From NCBI GenBank assembly GCA_024653485.1, contig JANLFY010000014.1:1-63916 (forward strand): a DNA stretch of 63,916 nt, read 5' to 3'. The notes beneath the pieces are model-generated. The model saw only the letters and a list, made by a program, of their open reading frames with translations, did not search any database and was not told the origin of the DNA. The DNA comes from Bacillota bacterium (GTDB lineage Bacteria; Bacillota; SHA-98; UBA4971). Positions 37,265-49,480 of this stretch are shown here, piece after piece; position 1 is the first letter of the stretch, and each line of letters begins with the position of its first letter. The translations under genes and the position numbers were made by a program.

Positions 37265-38227
37265 ATGGACCGGTCGCCGCTGGAGATCCACGTGGACGAA
37301 GCTGACGAGGGCAAGCGCCTTGATGTGTACGTCGCAGGGCGGCTTGCCCTCTCCCGTTCCGCAACGCAGAGGCTTATCGACGAGGGTCGCGTGCTGGTGG
37401 CCGGAGAGCGGGCGAAGGCCGCGAGACGCGTGGGCACGGGAGACATAGTAACTGTGAGCCTTCCCGATCCGAGGCCCCTGGCTGTGGTGGCTGAGGACCT
37501 CCCCCTTGACGTCCTGTACGAAGACTGTGACATCATTGTGGTCAACAAACCCCGGGGGCTGGTGGTTCATCCGGCTGCCGGAAACTGGTCCGGCACGCTC
37601 GTCAACGCCCTGTTGGCCCACTGCGCCGACCTCTCGGGCATTGGCGGTAAGATCCGGCCCGGGATAGTCCACCGCCTCGACAAGGACACTTCGGGCGTCA
37701 TCGTCGCCGCCAAGAACGATGTGTCTCACCTTGCCCTTGCGCGCGACCTCAAAGAGCGCGCGGTGGACAAGACGTACCTCGCAGTTGTCCATGGCGTGCC
37801 GCGACCGAGGCGGGGCACGGTCGACGCTCCCATCGGACGTCATCCAGTCCACAGGAAGAGGATGGCGGTGGTTCCCGAGGGGCGCGGGAGAGCCGCGGTG
37901 ACCGAATACGAGGTGCTGGAGGACCTGAGAGGCAGCGCGCTAGTCAAGGTGCATCCGCTTACGGGAAGGACCCATCAAATCAGGGTACACCTCGCGCACA
38001 TCGGCCATCCCATCGTAGGTGATCCGGTATACGGAGGGCGAGCCCGCTCGAAAGAAGTGGCCACCGCCGTTGCCGCATCTGGGCTCTCTGGTCAGGCGCT
38101 TCACGCTTCGTCGCTCAGCTTCGCGCATCCGCGCACCCGAGAGAGGATGACCTTTTCGGCGCCCTTGCCTGAAGACATGCAGCGCCTACTCACTCGTCTG
38201 CGCCAGGAGCCGCAAGTTGGCCCTTGA
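37265..38227 (+). CDS. rluD: Pseudouridine synthase, RluA/RluD family
   Basis: A pseudouridine synthase for 23S rRNA or tRNA. An N-terminal S4 domain (about 15-75, LSRSATQRLIDEGRVLV) precedes the catalytic domain with the HRLDKDTSGVIV motif; the catalytic aspartate is D139, as in E. coli RluD. The block KVHPLTGRTHQIRVHLAHIG and GDPVYGG follow. Length is 320 residues from the ATG at 37265. In Bacillus the orthologue ylyB lies after lspA, as here. The exact target uridine cannot be read from sequence. Its stop lies within the -35 of the purine promoter. Confidence 0.92.
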   Translation: MDRSPLEIHVDEADEGKRLDVYVAGRLALSRSATQRLIDEGRVLVAGERAKAARRVGTGDIVTVSLPDPRPLAVVAEDLPLDVLYEDCDIIVVNKPRGLVVHPAAGNWSGTLVNALLAHCADLSGIGGKIRPGIVHRLDKDTSGVIVAAKNDVSHLALARDLKERAVDKTYLAVVHGVPRPRRGTVDAPIGRHPVHRKRMAVVPEGRGRAAVTEYEVLEDLRGSALVKVHPLTGRTHQIRVHLAHIGHPIVGDPVYGGRARSKEVATAVAASGLSGQALHASSLSFAHPRTRERMTFSAPLPEDMQRLLTRLRQEPQVGP

Positions 38228-38253
38228 CATCTTCGGACGGCTTGTGATATGGT
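38224..38253 (+). promoter_or_regulatory. Sigma-A promoter of the purine operon
   Basis: A perfect TTGACA at 38224-38229 is followed after 18 bp by TATGGT at 38248-38253, with TGA before it as an extended -10. The -35 overlaps the rluD stop. Transcription from here gives a leader of about 270 nucleotides before purE. Confidence 0.65.
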
Positions 38254-38340
38254 CGAGGCAAGGACAAGGGAATACCGTCTAGCACCGGCAGCGGCGGCCG
38301 AGGAGTTCCGGAACGGCGAGGCGGCCGAGGTGCGGGTGCG

Positions 38341-38470
38341 CGAGGGAAAGTGCGTCTAGGGTTCCACCCGCATGGCGCGTGACACATGGCGCGGCGGGGA
38401 TCGGTCCGAGCGATGCAGGCGCGGCGCGTAGCGGCGCTACACCTTGAGGGATAAAAGCCCCGGCGGATGG
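38341..38470 (+). promoter_or_regulatory. ykkC-family riboswitch, probable PRPP class
   Basis: The leader carries the conserved elements of the ykkC RNA in order: GTCTAGGGTTCC (about 38354-38365), CGGTCCGAGCGA (about 38402-38413), and CTACAC (38437-38442) followed by GGGATAAAAGCCC (38448-38460). The ykkC family divides into guanidine-I, ppGpp and PRPP classes; PRPP members precede purine biosynthesis genes. This one lies directly before purE, so PRPP is the likely ligand. Its 3' element overlaps the left arm of the terminator at 38453, so ligand binding would favour read-through. Motifs are seen; the ligand is inferred from context. Confidence 0.8.
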
Positions 38471-38502
38471 GTTTCACTCGAAGCCTATCCGCCGGGGCTT
38501 TT
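38453..38502 (+). terminator. Riboswitch-controlled terminator before purE
   Basis: A stem of up to 19 bp (38453-38471 with 38484-38502, one G-T pair, core AAAAGCCCCGGCGGAT) closes a 12-base loop and ends in TTTT. It lies 30 bp before the purE start and shares AAAAGCCC with the riboswitch aptamer, so the two structures exclude each other. Confidence 0.85.
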
Positions 38503-38532
38503 GGCATTTCCTGCGGTGGGGAGGGGCTGAAC

Positions 38533-39105
38533 ATGGGTCAGACGGAAGGGCCGCGAACGCAGACGGAGGACACCGGCCGCGGCGTGAAGGTCATCGTGAT
38601 GATGGGCAGTGACTCAGACCTGCCCGTCATGGGCGAGTGCATCAAAACGCTGGAGGAGTTCGGCGTTGAACACGAGGTCGTGGTGACGTCGGCGCACAGG
38701 TCGCTCGACAGGACCGTGTCCATCGCCCGGGGGGCAAGGGACAGAGGGGCTCGGGTCATCATCGCCGCAGCCGGCGGGGCGGCGCATCTCGCCGGAGTGG
38801 TGGCGGCGGCCACGGCGCTCCCTGTGATAGGGGTGCCATGCGCAGGCTCGGCTCTCACCGGACTCGACGCGCTGTATTCCACGGTGCAGATGCCGCCCGG
38901 CGTGCCTGTCGCGTGTGTAGGAGTGAACGCGGCGCGAAACGCTGCTCTCCTCGCAGTTGAGATCCTCGCTATAGCTGACCGGGGTCTATCCGAGGAGATC
39001 GATCGGTATCGGCAGCGCTTGGTGCGAGAGGTGGAGGCGAAACACGAGCGTGTGGCGGAAGCACTTGCTGAGGCTCGACAGGTCAAGACGAATGAGACGC
39101 ATTAG
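38533..39105 (+). CDS. purE: N5-carboxyaminoimidazole ribonucleotide mutase PurE
   Basis: PurE converts N5-CAIR to CAIR in IMP synthesis. The MMGSDSDLPVM phosphate-binding block, TSAHRSLDR, the AAAGGAAHLAGVVAA block and the class I-type VQMPPGVPVACV motif are present. Length is 190 residues with an extra polar N-terminus of 16. The ATG at 38533 has a GGGGAGGGG SD. No purK follows, so either CO2 is used through the spontaneously formed carbamate or purK is elsewhere. First gene of the riboswitch-controlled operon. Confidence 0.94.
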   Translation: MGQTEGPRTQTEDTGRGVKVIVMMGSDSDLPVMGECIKTLEEFGVEHEVVVTSAHRSLDRTVSIARGARDRGARVIIAAAGGAAHLAGVVAAATALPVIGVPCAGSALTGLDALYSTVQMPPGVPVACVGVNAARNAALLAVEILAIADRGLSEEIDRYRQRLVREVEAKHERVAEALAEARQVKTNETH

Positions 39106-39228: not shown

Positions 39229-39975
39229 GTGACACCGGGCGACGTGAAGATGGGTGAGGAGCTCGTATACGAAGGCAAGGCCAAGCGGGTCTATCGCATG
39301 CAAGATCCGAGGCACTATCTCATCGAGTTCAAGGACGACGCAACGGCTCAAGACGGTCGCAAGCGGGGACGGATCCTAGGAAAGGGCGTGGTGAACTGCC
39401 AGGTATCGGCGGTGCTCTTCTCGCATCTGGCTTCGCGCTCCATACCTACGCACTTCGTGGAGGTCGCTGGCGAGAGCGAGATGATCGTACGGAGACTTTC
39501 CATGCTTCCCCTGGAAGTCGTCGTGAGGAACATAGTCGCGGGCAGCCTTGCCAAGAGGCTCGGGATCGCGGAAGGCACGAAGCCCGCTTTCCCCATTGTG
39601 GAGTTTTACTACAAGAGTGACGCGCTGGGCGACCCGCTGGTCGTGGAGGATCACGTGATCGCTCTGGGCTTCGCCACGCGGGACGTGGTGGCTAAGCTCA
39701 GGGAGGCTTCGTGCGCCGTGAACAGGGAGCTCGCCCCCTTTCTAGCGGATAGGGGCCTGACACTAGTGGACTTCAAACTCGAGTTCGGCTGGTGCGACGG
39801 CGAGCTGCTTCTTGGGGATGAGATCTCTCCTGACACGTGTAGGCTTTGGGACGCGGCGACCGGTGACCGCCTGGACAAGGACCGCTTCAGGCGGGACATG
39901 GGAGGCGTGGAGGAAGCGTACGCCGAGGTGCTGCGGCGTGTCAGCGGCACGGATCGTTGGAGTATCTCGCGATGA
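39229..39975 (+). CDS. purC: Phosphoribosylaminoimidazole-succinocarboxamide synthase PurC
   Basis: The SAICAR synthetase condenses CAIR with aspartate using ATP. The EGKAKRVYR start, FKDDATA block, the PLEVVVRNIVAGSLAKR signature and the LVDFKLEFGW and DEISPDTCRLW blocks are intact. Length is about 248 residues; GTG at 39229 or 39244 or ATG at 39250 could start it. A 123-bp gap separates it from purE and holds only a doubtful basic frame. Confidence 0.96.
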   Translation: MTPGDVKMGEELVYEGKAKRVYRMQDPRHYLIEFKDDATAQDGRKRGRILGKGVVNCQVSAVLFSHLASRSIPTHFVEVAGESEMIVRRLSMLPLEVVVRNIVAGSLAKRLGIAEGTKPAFPIVEFYYKSDALGDPLVVEDHVIALGFATRDVVAKLREASCAVNRELAPFLADRGLTLVDFKLEFGWCDGELLLGDEISPDTCRLWDAATGDRLDKDRFRRDMGGVEEAYAEVLRRVSGTDRWSISR

Positions 39976-39992
39976 GAGGGGGACGAGGGACC

Positions 39993-40268
39993 ATGCGGTT
40001 CGTCGCTCAGGTCAAGGTGACCCTGAAACGGTCCATCCTGGACCCGCAGGGGTCAGCGGTGAAGAGGGCGCTTCATGCGATGAGCTACGACAACGTGCTG
40101 GACGTGCGCATCGGAAAGCACATCGAGGTTACGCTCACCGCTGATAGCGCAGAGTCCGCACAACGCCAGGTCCGGGAGATCACGGACAAGCTCCTTGCCA
40201 ACCCTGTGATCGAGGACTTCTCATTCGACCTCTCTGAAGCTGGCAACGATGGAGGCGGGGCAGGGTGA
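39993..40268 (+). CDS. purS: Phosphoribosylformylglycinamidine synthase subunit PurS
   Basis: PurS is the small structural subunit that links PurL and PurQ in the multi-subunit FGAM synthetase. It starts [19 protein letters not shown], has the [11 protein letters not shown] block and ends [13 protein letters not shown], all typical. The ATG at 39993 gives 91 residues. The stop overlaps the GTG start of purQ by 4 bp. Confidence 0.94.
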
Positions 40269-40969
40269 AGGTCGGCATCGTGGTGTTTCCAGGCTCGAAT
40301 TGCGATGCCGACTGCTATCGCGCCGTCGCCTCATTCGGCGTGGAAGTGGGGTATGTCTGGCATCAAGACCGTAAGCTGGATGGATATGACCTCGTCATCC
40401 TGCCGGGCGGGTTCTCGTACGGTGACTATCTGCGTGCAGGCGCGATAGCGAGGTTCTCCCCCATCCTGGACGAGGTCATGGGGTTCGCCGAAGCGGGCGG
40501 GCTCGTTCTGGGGATATGCAACGGCTTCCAGATACTCTTAGAGTGCGGGCTGCTTCCGGGGGCCATGCTGACGAACGCGGTCCCGCGGTTCAGGTGCGAA
40601 ACCGTTCACTTGCGCGTGGAGAACGCGCAGACCCCTTTCACGCGCTCTTGCAACCGGGGGCAGGTCCTTTCGATGCCGATAGCCCACGCCAGCGGCAACT
40701 ACTATGCCGACGATGAGACTCTAGCCGAGATCGAGTTGCGGGGTCAGGTGGTGTTCAGATACGTCAACGAAGACGGCGTCGCGACGTCGGAGGCCAACCC
40801 AAACGGATCGCGCCGGTCCATCGCCGGCATCACTAACAAGCAAGGAAACGTCCTGGGAATGATGCCCCACCCGGAGCGCGCGTGCGACGCACTTCTCGGA
40901 GGAACGGACGGCCGAGTGGTCTTCGCGTCGGTGTTCGATTTCCTTGCGGGAGGTGGAGAGCGTGGGTGA
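40265..40969 (+). CDS. purQ: Phosphoribosylformylglycinamidine synthase glutaminase subunit PurQ
   Basis: PurQ is a class I glutamine amidotransferase that supplies ammonia to PurL. The nucleophile is C85 in GICNGFQIL, and the His/Glu pair lies in [14 protein letters not shown]. The start [20 protein letters not shown] is typical of PurQ. Length is 234 residues. Its GTG overlaps the purS stop and its end overlaps purL by 8 bp, matching the stoichiometric complex. Confidence 0.96.
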
Positions 40970-43214
40970 GAGCATCTGGCGGGAGATGGGCCTTGCAGAC
41001 GAGGAGTACCAGCGCATCATCGCCATCCTCGGCCGCGAGCCCAATCTAGTGGAGCTGGGGATGTTCGCAGTCATGTGGTCGGAGCACTGCAGCTACAAGA
41101 ACTCGAGGGCGGTGCTCTCCCTGCTTCCCACCTCGGGAAGGCGAGTTCTCCAGGGCCCCGGCGAGAACGCTGGCGTGGTAAGCATAGGGAACGGCTTGGC
41201 CGTCGTGTTCAAAATCGAGAGCCACAATCATCCGTCTGCCGTCGAACCGTATCAGGGCGCTGCGACGGGGGTCGGAGGCATCATCCGCGACATCTTCACG
41301 ATGGGGGCCAGGCCCATCGCGCTTCTCGACGCGCTCCGGTTCGGCCCGCTCTCCGATTCCCGGTCGCGCCACCTCTTCACCCAGGTTGTGGCGGGCATAG
41401 CCGGGTACGGGAACTCCATCGGTATTCCCACTGTGGGCGGAGAAGTGGCCGTGCACGAGAGTTTCAGGGAGAGCCCTCTTGTGAACGTCATGTGCGTCGG
41501 GGTCGCTCCGGCTTCGGCCATCAAGAAGGCGGCGGCCAGGGGAGCAGGCAACCTCGTGATGGTCGTGGGTGCCCGGACCGGGCGCGACGGCATGCACGGC
41601 GCGACGTTCGCATCTGCCGAGCTCTCTCCGGAGGCAATGGCAAAACGTTCCGCCGTTCAGGTAGGAGACCCGTTCATGGAGAAGCTCCTGGTCGAGGCGT
41701 GCCTCGAGCTGTACGGGCTCGGGGACGATGTGGTCATCGGCATTCAGGACATGGGCGCAGCCGGGCTCACGTGCTCGTCGTGCGAGATGGCGGCACGCGG
41801 TGGCGTCGGCATGGAGATAGACGTCTCCAAGGTGTTGAGGCGCGAGGATGGCATGACGCCGTACGAAGTCATGCTCTCGGAATCGCAGGAAAGGATGCTC
41901 GTGGCCGTGAGGACCGGGAGCGAGCCCCAGGTCGAGCGGGTATTCAGGAAATGGGGCTTGGAAGCGACCGTTGTCGGCCGCGTGACGGACGATGGGATCC
42001 TCAGAATCAAGGACGGCGATGTAGTGGTCGCCGAGGTTCCGGCGAAAGCCCTCACCGATATGGCTCCTTGTTACACGAGGGAGGTCAGGGAGCCCGAGTA
42101 CTATCGGCGTGAGAAGGAACGCGATCTCTCAAGCGTGCCTGAGCCCGATGATTACGCCATCGCTCTGGGACGGCTCCTCGCCTCGCCCCGCATAGCCTCC
42201 AAGGAGTGGGTGTACGGCCAATACGACCATCAGGTGGGGACGAACACAGTGGTGCTCCCCGGGCGAGGGACGTCCGTAGTGAGGGTGCCCGGGACGAACA
42301 TGGGCCTCGCGCTCACTTGTGACGCCAATTCCCTGTACTGTTACCTCGATCCATGGGCGGGTGCGGCCCACGCTGTGACCGAGGCCGCTCGGAACATTGC
42401 CGCAGCGGGGGCCGAGCCCATAGGGATCACAGACTGCCTAAATCTCGGCAACCCCGAGAAACCCGAGGTGTTCTGGCAGTTCAGGCGGGCCGTTGAGGGC
42501 ATGGCAGAGGCGGCCAGGGCGCTCGAGATCCCCGTGACCGGTGGAAACGTGAGCTTCTACAACGAGTCGAAGCGGGACGGATCCGTGGTTGTGGCGATTC
42601 ATCCCACCCCGATGGTAGGGATGGTGGGGCTTGTCGAGGACCTCTCGCACGTAATGACTCCCGGCTTCAAACGAGAGGGGGATGTCGTGGCGCTTCTCGG
42701 ACGGACCGGCGACGAGATCGGGGCCAGCGAGTACCTCTCCGAAGTCCACGGGATAGAGGGAGGGCCCGTGCCCGCTGTGGATCTCGAGGCTGAGCGGGCC
42801 GTGATCGAGCTCTCCTTGGCCATCATCCGGGGAGGACTCCTCTCGTCGTGTCATGATCTCTCTGAGGGCGGGCTCGCCGTGGCTCTGGCGGAGGCGTGCG
42901 TTCTGGGTGGAAACGGCAAGGGGCAGGGGGCCAGGCTCAGGCTTCCTGGCACGATGCGCGCCGACCGCTATCTCTTCAGCGAGTCGGGTGGGCGCATGCT
43001 CGTGTCGTTTAGGCCGGCCGCGACGAGCGCGGTTAAGGAAATGGCCGATGAGTACGGTGTGCCCGTCATGATCCTCGGCGAGGTGGGCGGAATGCGCCTG
43101 GTCATCGACGATGCGAGCCATGCGGGGGAGCGCGCCCGGAGGTTGGTGGACGTTCCCGTGAGCGGATTATCGCAGGTGTACCGGGGGGCGATATCATGGG
43201 CCCTGGAGTCGTGA
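40962..43214 (+). CDS. purL: Phosphoribosylformylglycinamidine synthase subunit PurL
   Basis: The ATP-dependent synthetase subunit of FGAM synthase, small type. The [12 protein letters not shown] block, [39 protein letters not shown] and the C-terminal [17 protein letters not shown] signature are present. The GTG at 40962 after GGAGGTGGAG gives 750 residues, the normal size for the PurS-dependent form. The 3' end overlaps the purF-purM start by 19 bp. Confidence 0.96.
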
Positions 43215-45793
43215 ACAGAGTGTGCGGCAAGGTCGCAAGCAGGGCGTGCGTGGCGCGGGGATGGCCGTTGGACTGGCGCGAGCAATGCGGCGTCATCGGG
43301 GTGATGACCGGCGCGGGCGGGCGCGCTTCGGAGCTAGCGCTTTACGGGTTGCATGCCCTCCAGCACAGAGGACAGGAGAGCGCGGGGCTCGCCGCGTCAT
43401 CGGGCCCCACGACCGGCATTCGTCTTCACAAGGCCATGGGCCTCGTATCCGAGGTTTTCTCCGACGGTGCGGCGGAGGGCCTTGACGGGAACTTGGCCAT
43501 CGGTCACGTCCGCTATTCAACGGCGGGCTCCACAGGGATAGCGGATGCCCAGCCCCTCGTCTTCCACTACGCCTGGGGCGATCTCGCGCTTGCCCATAAC
43601 GGGAACGTGGTCAACGCGGACGCCCTCCGAAAATCCCTGGGCATGTCGGGTTCGGTGTTCCAGACCACCGTCGATACGGAGGTCCTGGGGTGTCTTCTTG
43701 CGAGATACTCCCAGAACGATCTGGGAGACGCCCTCGTCAAGTGCATGATCGACCTGGAGGGAGCGTACTCCGTCGTACTCATGACAGAGACCCAGCTCAT
43801 CGGGATGCGGGATCCGCACGGCTTCAGGCCCCTCTGCATGGGCGTGCTACCGTCCGGCGGCTTCGCGCTTGCCTCCGAGTCGTGCGCCTTGGACGTGATG
43901 GGAGCAGAGCTCGTCCGGGACGTGGAACCGGGCGAGATCGTGTTCATCGACGGGGAAGGAGTCAAGTCTATACACGGACCAAAGGCCCAGAGGCGTGCCG
44001 TGTGTGCGTTCGAGTACATCTACTTTGCCAGGCCGGACAGCGTGATCGAGGGCATCAACGTGAGCGAGGCCAGGTACGAGATGGGTCGGGTGCTTTCGGA
44101 AGAGCACGACCTGGAGGGAGACGTGGTCGTGCCCGTGCCTGAGTCGGGCGTCGCCGCGGGCCTCGGCTTTTCGCGGGGAAGCGGCATACCCTTCGAATAC
44201 GGGCTTGTCAAGAACAGGTATCTGGGCAGGACCTTCATCCAGCCGACGCAGGGCGCGAGGAGCCTTGGTGTGAGGTTGAAGCTCAACGCCGTCCGTCGCT
44301 TGGTCGAGGGAAAGCGCGTGCTTCTCGTGGACGATTCGATCGTCAGGGGAACGACCAGCGCGAGGCTGGTAAGGCTTCTCCGCGAAGCGGGAGCGAGGAG
44401 CGTGGGCCTGGTCGTGGCATCACCGCCCGTGGCTTACCCATGCTTCTATGGGATCGACACGTCCAGACGCGGTGACCGTCTGGCCGCATCGGGCGGAGAG
44501 GACTTCGTTCTGGCCTTGACTGGGGCAGACACCCTTCACTACTTGAGCCGCGAGGGCCTCCTGGAGGCGCTCAGGCGCGCAGCGGACGACGGTGGCAGTG
44601 ACGGGCGCGATGAAGCGGGGTTTTGCCTGGCGTGCTTTGATGGAGACTATCCGGTCCCGGTCGCTGAGGCAAGATCGATCCGGGCCGGTCGCCCGAAGGA
44701 GACGGGGGCGCAGAAAGGCGTGCAGTCCGGGGAGAGCGGACCATCGAGGACGACGTACGCCGCGGCGGGCGTGGACATCGATCGCGGCGCAAAGGCGGTC
44801 GAGCTCATGCGAGACAAGGTGGCCGCGACGTTCGACAAAGGCGTCGTCGGAGGGATCGGGGGATTCGGCGGAGTGTACAGGCTGGGCGCGGCGGTCTCGC
44901 CCGGCGGCGACGCTCTCCTCGTCGCGGGGGCGGATGGCGTCGGCACGAAGCTGCGCATAGCCATAGAAGCCGGGAGGCACGACACCATCGGCATCGACGC
45001 GGTGGCGATGTGCGTGAACGATGTGCTCACGTGCGGCGCACGCCCGCTGTTCTATCTGGATTACGTGGCCCAGTCGAGGATAGACCCGGAGAAGGTCGCA
45101 TGCATCGTCTCCGGGATGGCAGAGGGTTGCAGGAGGGCAGGTTGCGCCTTGCTCGGAGGGGAGACCGCGGAGATGCCCGGTTTCTATTCCAACGGAGACT
45201 ACGATGTAGCAGGGTTCGCCGTTGGCATCGTGGAACGGGACAGGTTCGTGGATGGCACTGCCATCGAGCCGGGGGACGTCCTCCTGGGCCTCGCGTCGTC
45301 GGGCCTTCACAGCAATGGATTCTCCCTCGCGAGGCACGTTCTCTTTGACATCGCCGGGTTGGGACTGCATGACGAACCCGACGGCTTGGGGCGGCGGCTC
45401 TGGGAGGAGCTCCTCGAGCCGACCAAGATCTACGTGAAACCCATCCTGAGGCTGATGGATGAGGTTCCGGTCTGCGGCATGGCGCACATCACGGGAGGGG
45501 GGCTAGTAGACAATCCGCCCAGGATGCTTCCGCCCGGCCTCGGTCTGAGGTTTGAGACGGGTTCGTGGCCCGTTCCTCCCATCTTCGGCCTGATCCAGAG
45601 GCTCGGAAACGTGGACCTTCGTGAAATGATGCGGACTTTCAACATGGGCATAGGTTTCGTGGTAGCGGTGAAGCAGAGCCACGTCTCGTGTGCAGTGGAG
45701 ATCCTCGAGGCAGCGGGCGAGCGTTGCTACGTGGTGGGAGAGGTAGTCCCAGGCGGCGGGGAGGTGACTTTCGCCGATGGGAGGGACGTGTGA
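43196..45793 (+). CDS. purF/purM: PurF-PurM fusion: amidophosphoribosyltransferase and AIR synthetase
   Basis: One uninterrupted 865-codon frame encodes two purine enzymes. Residues about 27-490 are PurF: after a propeptide, the glutaminase nucleophile is C31 (REQCGVIGV), followed by [12 protein letters not shown] and the PRPP loop [13 protein letters not shown]. The four cysteines of the 4Fe-4S PurF type are present ([32 protein letters not shown]). A polar linker (about 490-518) leads to PurM from about 520: [52 protein letters not shown]. PurF and PurM are normally separate proteins. An internal GTG at about 44720 could also allow separate PurM synthesis. Confidence 0.93.
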
Positions 45794-46400
45794 GACGTTC
45801 AGGTTGGTCGTTATGGCCTCTGGTCGAGGCACCAACCTCCAGGCGATAATCGACGCTGCTCAGCGTGGAAGCCTCAAAGCCCAGGTGGCAGGGGTGGTGT
45901 GCGACAACCCCGGGGCGCGCGCGCTAGAGAGGGCCGCCGCCTGCCGGATCCCGTCGTCGGTCGTGGTCCGCGAGGCTTATCAATCGAGAAGCGAGTTCGA
46001 AATGGCGCTGGTCGGAGCGGTAAGGAGATTCGACCCCGAGCTCGTGGTGCTGGCCGGCTTCATGAGGGTGCTGGGTGAGACGTTCCTCCAGGCGTTTCCC
46101 GGTCGGATCATAAACATACACCCATCGCTCCTCCCGGCGTTTCGTGGCCTGGAGGCTCAGCGTCAAGCCCTCGAGTACGGTGTGAAGTACACCGGCTGCA
46201 CGGTGCACTTCGTTGACGCAGGGGTGGACACGGGCCCGATAATCGGCCAGCGCGCGGTGCCGGTTCTGCCGGGTGACACCGTGGACTCGCTCTCCGCCCG
46301 GATCCTCGAGCACGAGCACGAGCTCCTGGTGGAGTGCATACGAGCTATCGCTGAGGGTAGGGTGAAGGTCGAGGGGAGAAGGGTCCAGGTAAGAGAGTGA
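45777..46400 (+). CDS. purN: Phosphoribosylglycinamide formyltransferase PurN
   Basis: PurN transfers the formyl group of 10-formyltetrahydrofolate to GAR. The [15 protein letters not shown] block is the phosphate loop. The catalytic Asn-His are in [13 protein letters not shown] and the Asp is in VDTGPIIGQ. Length is 207 residues. The ATG at 45777 overlaps the fusion gene by 17 bp and has a GGGAGGT SD about 11 bp upstream. Confidence 0.95.
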
Positions 46401-46460
46401 GGTCGCGATGGCCTGTCTCCCCTTGGCGCCCGGACCATCATTGACACGGAGGTGGACGAA

Positions 46461-48059
46461 TTGGGGACACGCAGGGCGATCATCAGCGTTCATGACAAGA
46501 CCGGCGTGGTGGAATTCGCGAAGGCCCTGGCGGAATTGGGTTACGAGATCGTTTCGACCGGCGGCACCGCGGCTGTTCTCGAAGAGGCCGGGGTCCCGGT
46601 GACTCCTGTTTCTACAGTGACGGGTTTCCCCGAGATTCTTGGGGGCAGAGTGAAGACTTTGCACCCTGCCGTGCACGCGGGTATACTCGCCCGCCGAACC
46701 CCGGGGCATGAGGGCGAGCTTCGCAGGCTCGGGATAGAGTTCGTAGACATCGTTGCGGTCAACCTGTACCCGTTCGTCGAGACCGTGGCGAAGCCCGGTG
46801 TCACGCTGGAAGAAGCCGTGGAGAACATCGATATCGGTGGCCCGACGATGGTGCGCGCGGCGGCCAAGAACTTCGAACGCGTCACGGTGGTCACTAGTCC
46901 GTCAAGATACGCGGAGGTGGTTGCGGAGCTCGAGTCGCAGGGGCAGGTGTCGCTTCGCACGCGGATGCGCCTTGCTGCAGAGGCGTTTCGGCATACGTCA
47001 GAATACGATCGCGCCGTGACGGAGTTCTTGGGACGGACGCGCGAGGAGCAGGGGCTGCGCGGCGAGGGCGACAAGGACGGCTCTGGATGCCATGGCACCC
47101 TCCAAGACGAGCTATGGATACGCGGCGCGAAGGTGTTAGACCTCCGATACGGGGAAAACCCGCACCAGGCGGCGGCGTTCTACGCCCTGGAGGGAATCGA
47201 GGCGGCGGGGCTTGCTGCGGCGCGGCAGGTGCAGGGCAAGGCACTCTCGTTCAACAACATCCTGGACGCTGATGCCGCTTTGCGGATAATGAGGGAATTT
47301 TCCGAGCCTGTCGCAGTCGTGATCAAACACACGAATCCCTGCGGCGTGGCAGTGGCCAACGACCTGGCAAACGCGTACGTGCGGGCGCGGGATGCCGATA
47401 GCGTGTCCGCCTTCGGCAGCGTGGTCGGACTCGGCGGGACGGTAACGGCAGACGTTGCGGCGAGACTCGTCGAGACCTTCGTGGAGGTTGTGCTCGCCTG
47501 GGGCGTTGCCGACGAGGCGCTCCCGATCCTCGCCACAAAACCCAACCTTCGAGTGCTCGTCGTGCCCGGAGCCCCGAACGGTTCTGTCGGTGCCCGAGCC
47601 GGTATCGACGTTCGTTGGGTGGACGGAGGCTTTCTGGTGCAGCAGGCGGATGTTCCTTGCGAAGACGAAGAGCACGCTGTCCGGGTGGTGACTTGCAGGA
47701 GACCTAGCGTTCAGGAGGCCAAGTGGCTCCTGCACGCCATGAGAGTAGCGAAACACGTGAAGTCGAATGCCATCGTCTTGTGGAAAGATGGCGCCACCGT
47801 GGGTGTCGGAGCAGGCCAGATGAACCGGGTGGGCTCTGTGAGGATTGCAGCTGCCCAGGCAGGCGCGCACGCTCGGGGCGCGGTGTTGGCGTCGGACGCC
47901 TTCTTCCCGTTCAGGGACGGCATAGATGAGGCCGCCAGGGCAGGCGTGACCGCCATAGTTCAACCGGGAGGATCGCTTCGGGACAAGGAATGCATCGAGG
48001 CCGCGAACGAACATGGCATCTCCATGGTCTTCACAGGCATCCGGCATTTTCGGCATTGA
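46461..48059 (+). CDS. purH: Bifunctional AICAR transformylase/IMP cyclohydrolase PurH
   Basis: PurH performs the last two steps of IMP synthesis. The cyclohydrolase domain (1-200) has [22 protein letters not shown] and [16 protein letters not shown]. The transformylase domain contains [14 protein letters not shown], the catalytic [10 protein letters not shown] and the final [17 protein letters not shown] with IVQPGGS. A TTG at 46461 has an ACGGAGG SD with 8-bp spacing, better than the GTG at 46452 that overlaps the SD. Length is 532 residues. Confidence 0.96.
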
Positions 48060-48145
48060 GGCCAGCGCGGTGGCATTCGGATTCGGCCGGTCCCTCGCGG
48101 ACTCGGTCCGACTCGCGGGACCCGGACGCGGCGCAGGTCAAGGAG

Positions 48146-49480
48146 ATGATGGTGGTGAAGGCAAGACTGAAACGGGATGGCTTGAGCGTCCTCGTTGTGG
48201 GCGGAGGCGGAAGGGAGCACGCCCTGGCTTGGAAACTCGCGTCAAGTCCCAGGGTTGCCAAGCTGTACGCAGCTCCCGGCAATCCTGGTATCGCCCGGAT
48301 CGCGTCGTGCGTGCCCATCGGGGCGACCGACACGGCCGCTCTGGCGAACTTCGCGGTCCAGAGGCGAGTGGATATCACTGTGGTGGGACCTGAGGGGCCA
48401 CTGGCCCTTGGTATCGTGGACGAGTTCAACCGACTCGGGCTTGCGGTCTTCGGGCCGACGAAGCGCGCGGCGGAGATAGAGTCCAGCAAGGCGTGGGCGA
48501 AGGGATTCATGACGAGACACGGGATACCCACCGCCGGTTATTGCGTCTTCGGAGATCCCGATGCTGCCAGGGCTTTCATTCGGCAGAGCGGAGGGCCCGC
48601 GGTTGTCAAGGCCGACGGCCTCGCTGCGGGCAAAGGGGTCATCGTGGCTCATACAGTGGAAGAAGCGGAGAAGGCCATCGAGACCGTGGCATCGCTCGGA
48701 GCAGGTGGCGCCATCGTCATCGAGGACCTCCTCATCGGTCAGGAGATGAGCTTTTTCGCGGTAACCGACGGTGAGACCTCGGTGCCCCTGCTTTCTGCGC
48801 GCGACCACAAGCGTGCATGGGACGGCGACGTTGGCCCAAATACGGGGGGCATGGGCGCGGTAGCTCCTGCTCCCGAGTACGACGAGGACCTGGAGACCAG
48901 GATCATGTCTGAGATAATAGACCCCGCGGTGAAGGGTCTTGCGCGGGAAGGGAGGCGATACGTTGGCGTGCTGTACGCTGGCCTCATGCTCACGTCCTCC
49001 GGTCCGAAAGTCCTGGAGTTCAACGCGAGATTGGGCGACCCCGAAACGCAAGCCATTCTTCCCATGATGGAGTCAGACCTCGTCGATCTGATGGAGGCGG
49101 CTCTTGAGCGCCAGGGCCTCGGCCCGGGCGTGGTGAGGTGGCGACCAGGCGCCAGCGCCTGCGTGGTTCTCGCGTCCCGAGGGTACCCCGACAAACCGGC
49201 GCTCGGCGAGGAGATCCACATAGACGACGCTGGCATTGAGGCTGACGACGTCCTCTTGTTCCATGCCGGCACGAAGCTCGTCCAAGACAGGCTCGTTACG
49301 TCGGGAGGTCGAGTCTTGAACGTGGTGGCCACGGGACGCTCGATGGGGGAAGCGGCGGACCGTGCGTACCGGGGGATACGCCACGTGAAGTTTCAGGGGA
49401 TGTGGTGCAGAACGGATATCGGCAAGAGTTGCGTGCCGGTGGCGGGCGTCTTGGATTCTCTTCCGCCCGGCGGGGAATGA
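48146..49480 (+). CDS. purD: Phosphoribosylamine-glycine ligase PurD
   Basis: The GAR synthetase, an ATP-grasp enzyme. [17 protein letters not shown] begins the N-terminal domain. [13 protein letters not shown] and the block [20 protein letters not shown] are in the ATP-grasp core, and [17 protein letters not shown] closes the metal site. Starts at 48146, 48149 or 48155 are all possible after AAGGAG; the upstream open frame overlaps purH and lacks similarity. Length is about 444 residues. It is the last gene of the purine operon; purB is not present. Confidence 0.95.

Follow-up and report, generated by a model that had tools for sequence, protein, structure and literature searches.

The leader RNA that precedes purE in this Bacillota bacterium is, with a probability that we put at about 0.9, a singlet PRPP riboswitch (ykkC subtype 2b) acting as an ON switch for the purine operon. 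The window, i.e., the whole stretch of 63,916 nt that was analyzed (contig JANLFY010000014.1), carries a ykkC-scaffold aptamer at positions 38341-38480, and a complete purine operon (purE, C, S, Q, L, F-M, N, H and D) follows the leader. As judged from its residues, the RNA almost certainly senses PRPP, the compound from which purine synthesis starts, and on sequence grounds it is a well-preserved ordinary member of the known class in its singlet form. The coordinates of its parts are given in Table 1. In the operon, purF and purM are fused into one open frame (43196-45793, 865 aa) with glutamine amidotransferase, phosphoribosyltransferase and AIR synthase domains; the genus keeps this fusion, as does at least one genome of the sister genus.

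Table 1. Features of the purE leader and the operon downstream (window coordinates).
Feature	Position	Strand	Evidence
Sigma-70-type promoter: TTGACA, 18 nt, TG-n-TATGGT (extended -10)	38224..38253	+	Sequence; layout also in sister genomes
Extra GC-rich 5' hairpin, at the position of the guanine aptamer of tandem relatives	38274..38337	+	Fold, genus alignment; weak support
P0 5' arm CGAG	38341..38344	+	Alignment, pairing with CUCG
A5, G6: PRPP pyrophosphate contacts	38349..38350	+	Numbering of PMC6031431; invariant in all high-scoring aligned leaders
P1/P1a/P1b domain, with CTAGGGTTCC (38356-38365) and GGTCCGAG (38403-38410)	38351..38417	+	RF00442, alignment
G48, C49: 5'-phosphate and metal contacts	38410..38411	+	Residue alignment
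P2 hairpin	38419..38437	+	RF00442, alignment
C75, C77, C78 region (CACC), ligand pocket	38440..38443	+	Residue alignment
P3 GGGAUAAAAGCCC	38448..38460	+	RF00442, alignment
Terminator-like hairpin of 24 pairs that shares sequence with P3, G96-G105 and the P0 3' arm	38452..38503	+	Pairing; weak U-tract
G96 (38462), A101 (38467), position 103 = G (38469), G104-G105 (38470-38471)	38462..38471	+	Residue alignment
P0 3' arm CUCG	38477..38480	+	Alignment, pairing with CGAG
purE (AIR carboxylase), first operon gene	38533..39105	+	Pfam AIRC 3.5e-59
purC, purS, purQ, purL, purF-purM, purN, purH, purD	39244..49480	+	Gene order, domains

The membership in the ykkC family, proposed in an earlier note made from the sequence alone, was borne out by covariance search, in which the Rfam model RF00442 (ykkC/guanidine-I) matched positions 38345-38467 over its full length with 57.9 bits and an E-value of 7.9e-10. 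The leader is the only match of this model in the 3.0-Mb genome, and the ordered core motifs that the note had quoted are all in place (CTAGGGTTCC, GGTCCGAG and, at 38448-38460, GGGATAAAAGCCC). The score falls just short of the gathering cut-off of RF00442 (63 bits), so a default Rfam scan misses the leader, and many purine-gene leaders likewise score below this cut-off. No Rfam match to a PRPP or ppGpp riboswitch model was detected, RF00442 being the sole ykkC-scaffold model that matched.

An alignment of 16 purine-type leaders was then used, in which P0, P1, P1a/b, P2, P3 and the long-range C75-G96 pair were written down as a structure of 26 pairs. In it, 93.9% of the cells were paired and 16 of the 26 pairs showed double changes; none of 500 shuffles matched the structure on any of five measures, and the pairing fell to 27-49% when the partners were shifted by 1-3 columns. 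The P0 helix covaries across the leaders, in such a way that none of 300 permutations was equally good. A model built from this alignment (R1) gave the window 122.5 bits, with the window itself in the training set, and a hold-out model (R2), built from eight leaders that are all of other families, recovered 38335-38481 end to end with 75.5 bits and an E-value of about 1e-18. The fold energy of 38345-38505 corresponded to a z of -4.1. The P0 arms, as well as a separate 5' hairpin (about 38274-38337), were absent from the earlier note.

To assign the ligand, residues were numbered as in the PRPP aptamer of T. mathranii (PMC6031431), where the primers given in the methods fix G96 and the tails. 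The window carries A5, G6, G48, C49, C75, C77, C78, G96, A101, G104 and G105, and all the residues in direct contact with PRPP in the crystal structure are present. Among 121 high-scoring rows (window included), A5, G6, G48, C75, C77, C78, G96 and G105 are invariant, G104 is found in all but one, and position 49 is always a pyrimidine.

These residues also decide between PRPP and the other ligands of the scaffold. That the RNA is a guanidine-I riboswitch, as the name of the Rfam match says, has in its favor that RF00442 is the sole convincing family match, but we consider it extremely improbable: position 49 is a C and not the guanidine-specific A, the guanidine-I-type controls L034-L036 differ at positions 49 and 78 (A49 and G78), P0 tails are present in the window, and a guanidine-related gene is absent downstream. 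The C at 38411 (C49) therefore excludes guanidine-I, and the name of RF00442 as the identity of the RNA is ruled out by residues 49 and 78 and by P0. A ppGpp-sensing aptamer (subtype 2a), which would switch the purine genes in starvation, shares with the window the scaffold, C49 and P0, and the altered position 103 was counted on its side too; however, the window has G96, and the genes downstream are a purine operon and not amino-acid genes, so that this reading appears very unlikely. Position 96 is a G in over 97% of PRPP aptamers and not a G in ppGpp aptamers, and the change G96A shifts the specificity about 40,000-fold (PMC6031431); an A at this position was found in the leader L022. The G96 at 38462 therefore favors PRPP over ppGpp. 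The PRPP assignment, previously made from gene context, is thus backed independently by C49, G96 and both P0-forming tails.

The window differs from all the other distinct leaders at position 103 (38469), where it has a G, unique among 120, and every other one has an A. In the crystal structure of the PRPP aptamer A103 stacks under G105 (PMC6031431), and therefore a modest effect of G103 on the aptamer is possible. In the competing hairpin described below, the change merely turns an A-U pair into G-U. The G at 38469 may also be an assembly error.

Upstream of the aptamer, the perfect TTGACA element of the earlier note was found at 38224-38229, separated by an 18-nt spacer from TATGGT (38248-38253); one such promoter site was observed against 0.1 expected in shuffles. 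Transcription would start near 38260, which makes the leader about 270 nt long. A leader peptide of about 36 codons, from the ATG in TATGGT to the TAG of CUAGGG, was considered and rejected: its ATG lies within the -10 element, most of the changes between species are non-synonymous, and the frame is broken in the sister species G001 (as read by eye).

Downstream, 38452-38475 pairs with 38480-38503 around an ACUC loop in a hairpin of -46 kcal/mol. The terminator stem that had been described is thus present, but with 24 pairs instead of 19 and ending 29 nt, not 30, before the purE ATG (38533). The segment AAAAGCCC (38453-38460) is common to P3 and the left arm of the hairpin, as had been noted; this arm contains the P3 3' strand, G96, A101 and G104-G105. 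The P0 3' arm CUCG corresponds to the hairpin loop plus the first pair. As the hairpin shares the strands of P3, G96, G104-G105 and P0, the aptamer and the hairpin are predicted to be mutually exclusive, in such a way that by their pairing the PRPP-bound aptamer and the hairpin cannot coexist. In characterized members of the class, PRPP binding allows transcription to continue past a terminator overlapping P3, and this ON switching by an overlapping terminator has been demonstrated for the class (PMC5912903). Here the U-tract is poor (UUUUGGCAUUU, with its first four U within the stem), and because of this we infer termination at the hairpin from the class, as we do PRPP binding and the switching on of the operon by PRPP. 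At high PRPP, the nascent RNA would dock P3 and close P0 (CGAG with CUCG) around the ligand, the closed aptamer would hold the strand 38452-38475 and block the 24-bp hairpin, and RNA polymerase would continue into purE-purD, with PurF consuming PRPP. At low PRPP the hairpin would form and most transcripts would stop before purE.

Because the hairpin is without a good U-tract, it was also considered that a genuine aptamer might act on translation or RNA stability and not on transcription termination. A consensus terminator scan of the leader called no terminator, and the U-tracts are short in sister species as well (GGGGCUUUAGCAUUUCC), both of which point in this direction. Nevertheless, the Shine-Dalgarno-like GGTGGGGAGGGG (38515-38526) begins 11 nt past the hairpin and is unpaired with it, and in the sister genus this stem is followed by CUAAUUAUUUUUCC, as would fit a terminator in the family, so we regard this alternative as improbable and keep transcriptional ON switching as the preferred reading.

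In many relatives a guanine aptamer lies immediately 5' of P0, in tandem with the PRPP aptamer, and these leaders were analyzed for the strand that forms P0. Such an aptamer was confirmed with RF00167 at 12 of the loci scanned and found by motif in 41 of 116 distinct leaders. In the tandem leaders, a 4-6 nt arm before GAAAG pairs with both the 5' strand of the guanine P1 and the 3' strand of P0. Both complementarities were present in 35 of the 36 tandem leaders tested, the arms (e.g., CGAG, CGUG, CAGC and CGGAG) varying in step with both partners, and both exceeded all 300 permutations, although related sequences make these counts optimistic. The 3' strand of the guanine P1 is thus the P0 5' arm of the PRPP aptamer, with three-way covariation (e.g., L004, L009, L071 and L177). 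According to a 2022 review, the structural basis of the IMPLY gate formed by these riboswitches is yet to be established (PMC9481103). As guanine P1 and PRPP P0 lie on the same strand, a testable mechanism for the logic gate is suggested, and the shared strand would be a simple candidate for it. If true, this sharing would explain the IMPLY gate, and the opposition between guanine and PRPP would come down to one strand with two mutually exclusive covarying partners.

In leaders that lack the guanine aptamer, a plain hairpin takes the arm in several other families (e.g., L070, L083, L176 and L191; pairing 1.00), and in 19 of 75 such leaders the pairing of the arm was at or below 5% of shuffles. 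A short hairpin that sequesters the P0 5' arm was observed at this place in L176, L179, L188, L193, L069, L070, L072 and L083.

These observations bear on the 5' hairpin of the window, which could be a second control element that alters the PRPP response, e.g., by competing for the P0 arm. The arm pairs with both guanine P1 and P0 in nearly all the tandem leaders tested, and substitute hairpins sequester it in several families; those of the sister genus do so to a moderate degree (0.67-0.87). In the sister genus the hairpin is an 11-pair helix, 98.7% paired, with CGA of the P0 arm taken up in its outer stem. By contrast, the covariation of the hairpin in the genus of the window is weak: across five species it has 15 pairs and 92% of paired cells, with just two pairs doubly changed. 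The pairing of the window arm in a 75-nt fold was 0.44, the same as in shuffles (0.44), although two of its four bases were paired when folding of the leader began at the start site. Sequestration of the P0 arm specific to the window was discarded for this reason, and since the arm pairing is no better than in shuffles, competition by the 5' hairpin for the arm is not supported at this locus. A second control element is consequently doubtful to us. We are equally tentative about the view that the GC-rich hairpin of this genus stands in for the guanine aptamer, competing for CGAG and so controlling P0 as an unliganded threshold setter or a second-signal aptamer, and about the broader sharing of a strand by guanine P1 and PRPP P0. 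No known aptamer was found within the hairpin in Rfam up to an E-value of 10, RF00167 had no match in this leader or in the loci of its own family, and the idea that the hairpin of this genus is a relic of a guanine aptamer was rejected, as its core motifs are absent. The only purine riboswitch of the genome (RF00167, 46.5 bits) lies on another contig (G000:C9:110906-111009, L270).

We compared the leader with known systems. It is similar to the singlet PRPP riboswitches of Heliobacterium modesticaldum purB and Thermoanaerobacter mathranii (PMC5912903, PMC6031431) in the P0-P3 architecture, C49, G96 and contact residues, as well as in the terminator-like hairpin over P3 and P0 and the purine gene downstream, whereas the GC-rich long P1b, the G at position 103, the 24-bp hairpin with a weak U-tract and the extra 5' hairpin set it apart. 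With the tandem guanine-PRPP riboswitches (IMPLY gate; PMC5912903, PMC9481103) it shares the PRPP aptamer, a single shared expression platform and a structured element immediately 5' of P0, but it has no guanine aptamer, the one purine aptamer of the genome being elsewhere. From guanidine-I riboswitches (RF00442), alike in the ykkC scaffold and P1-P3 core, it differs in C49 instead of A, the conserved P0-forming tails and the purine genes, and from ppGpp riboswitches (subtype 2a), alike in scaffold, C49 and tails, in G96.

A second, divergent ykkC-type RNA was observed in the sister species G001 and G004 (L033:1492-1633, plus strand; L032:1488-1624, minus strand) and is absent from the genome of the window. 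Its core is altered (CUUGGGGUUCC, GGUUCUAGC, GGGCAUAGAAGGCCC), with C49 and G96 kept, and Rfam E-values were 4e-5 and 7e-4 for the L033 and L032 copies, respectively. The L033 copy precedes a cytosine/purine permease (PF02133), and a similar ORF lies downstream of the L032 copy. The altered core was found just in these two of the 398 genomes searched. The RNA may be a PRPP switch of variant form, or it may represent a new ykkC subtype.

Regarding its distribution, the purE leader RNA was found before purE in 12 of the 13 genomes of the family, which are all 12 with an assembled leader, as purE of the thirteenth (G003) is at the edge of a contig and its leader is unassembled. In two sister families of the same class, the genomes have purE and showed no convincing match to the RNA. 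At the level of the phylum, R1 matched in 231 of 398 genomes, a count that includes other ykkC subtypes. A single close relative sharing this leader came out of a PurE search of genome contigs (L093, Firmicutes bacterium UBA4981), the other PurE genes being distant and uninformative. The Rfam ykkC model at its cut-off misses purine-type members such as this one (57.9 versus 63 bits). With the riboswitch proposed here, PRPP would govern the complete purine operon in an uncultured family that is GC-rich and related to the Firmicutes, and the RNA is present in every genome of the family that could be checked.
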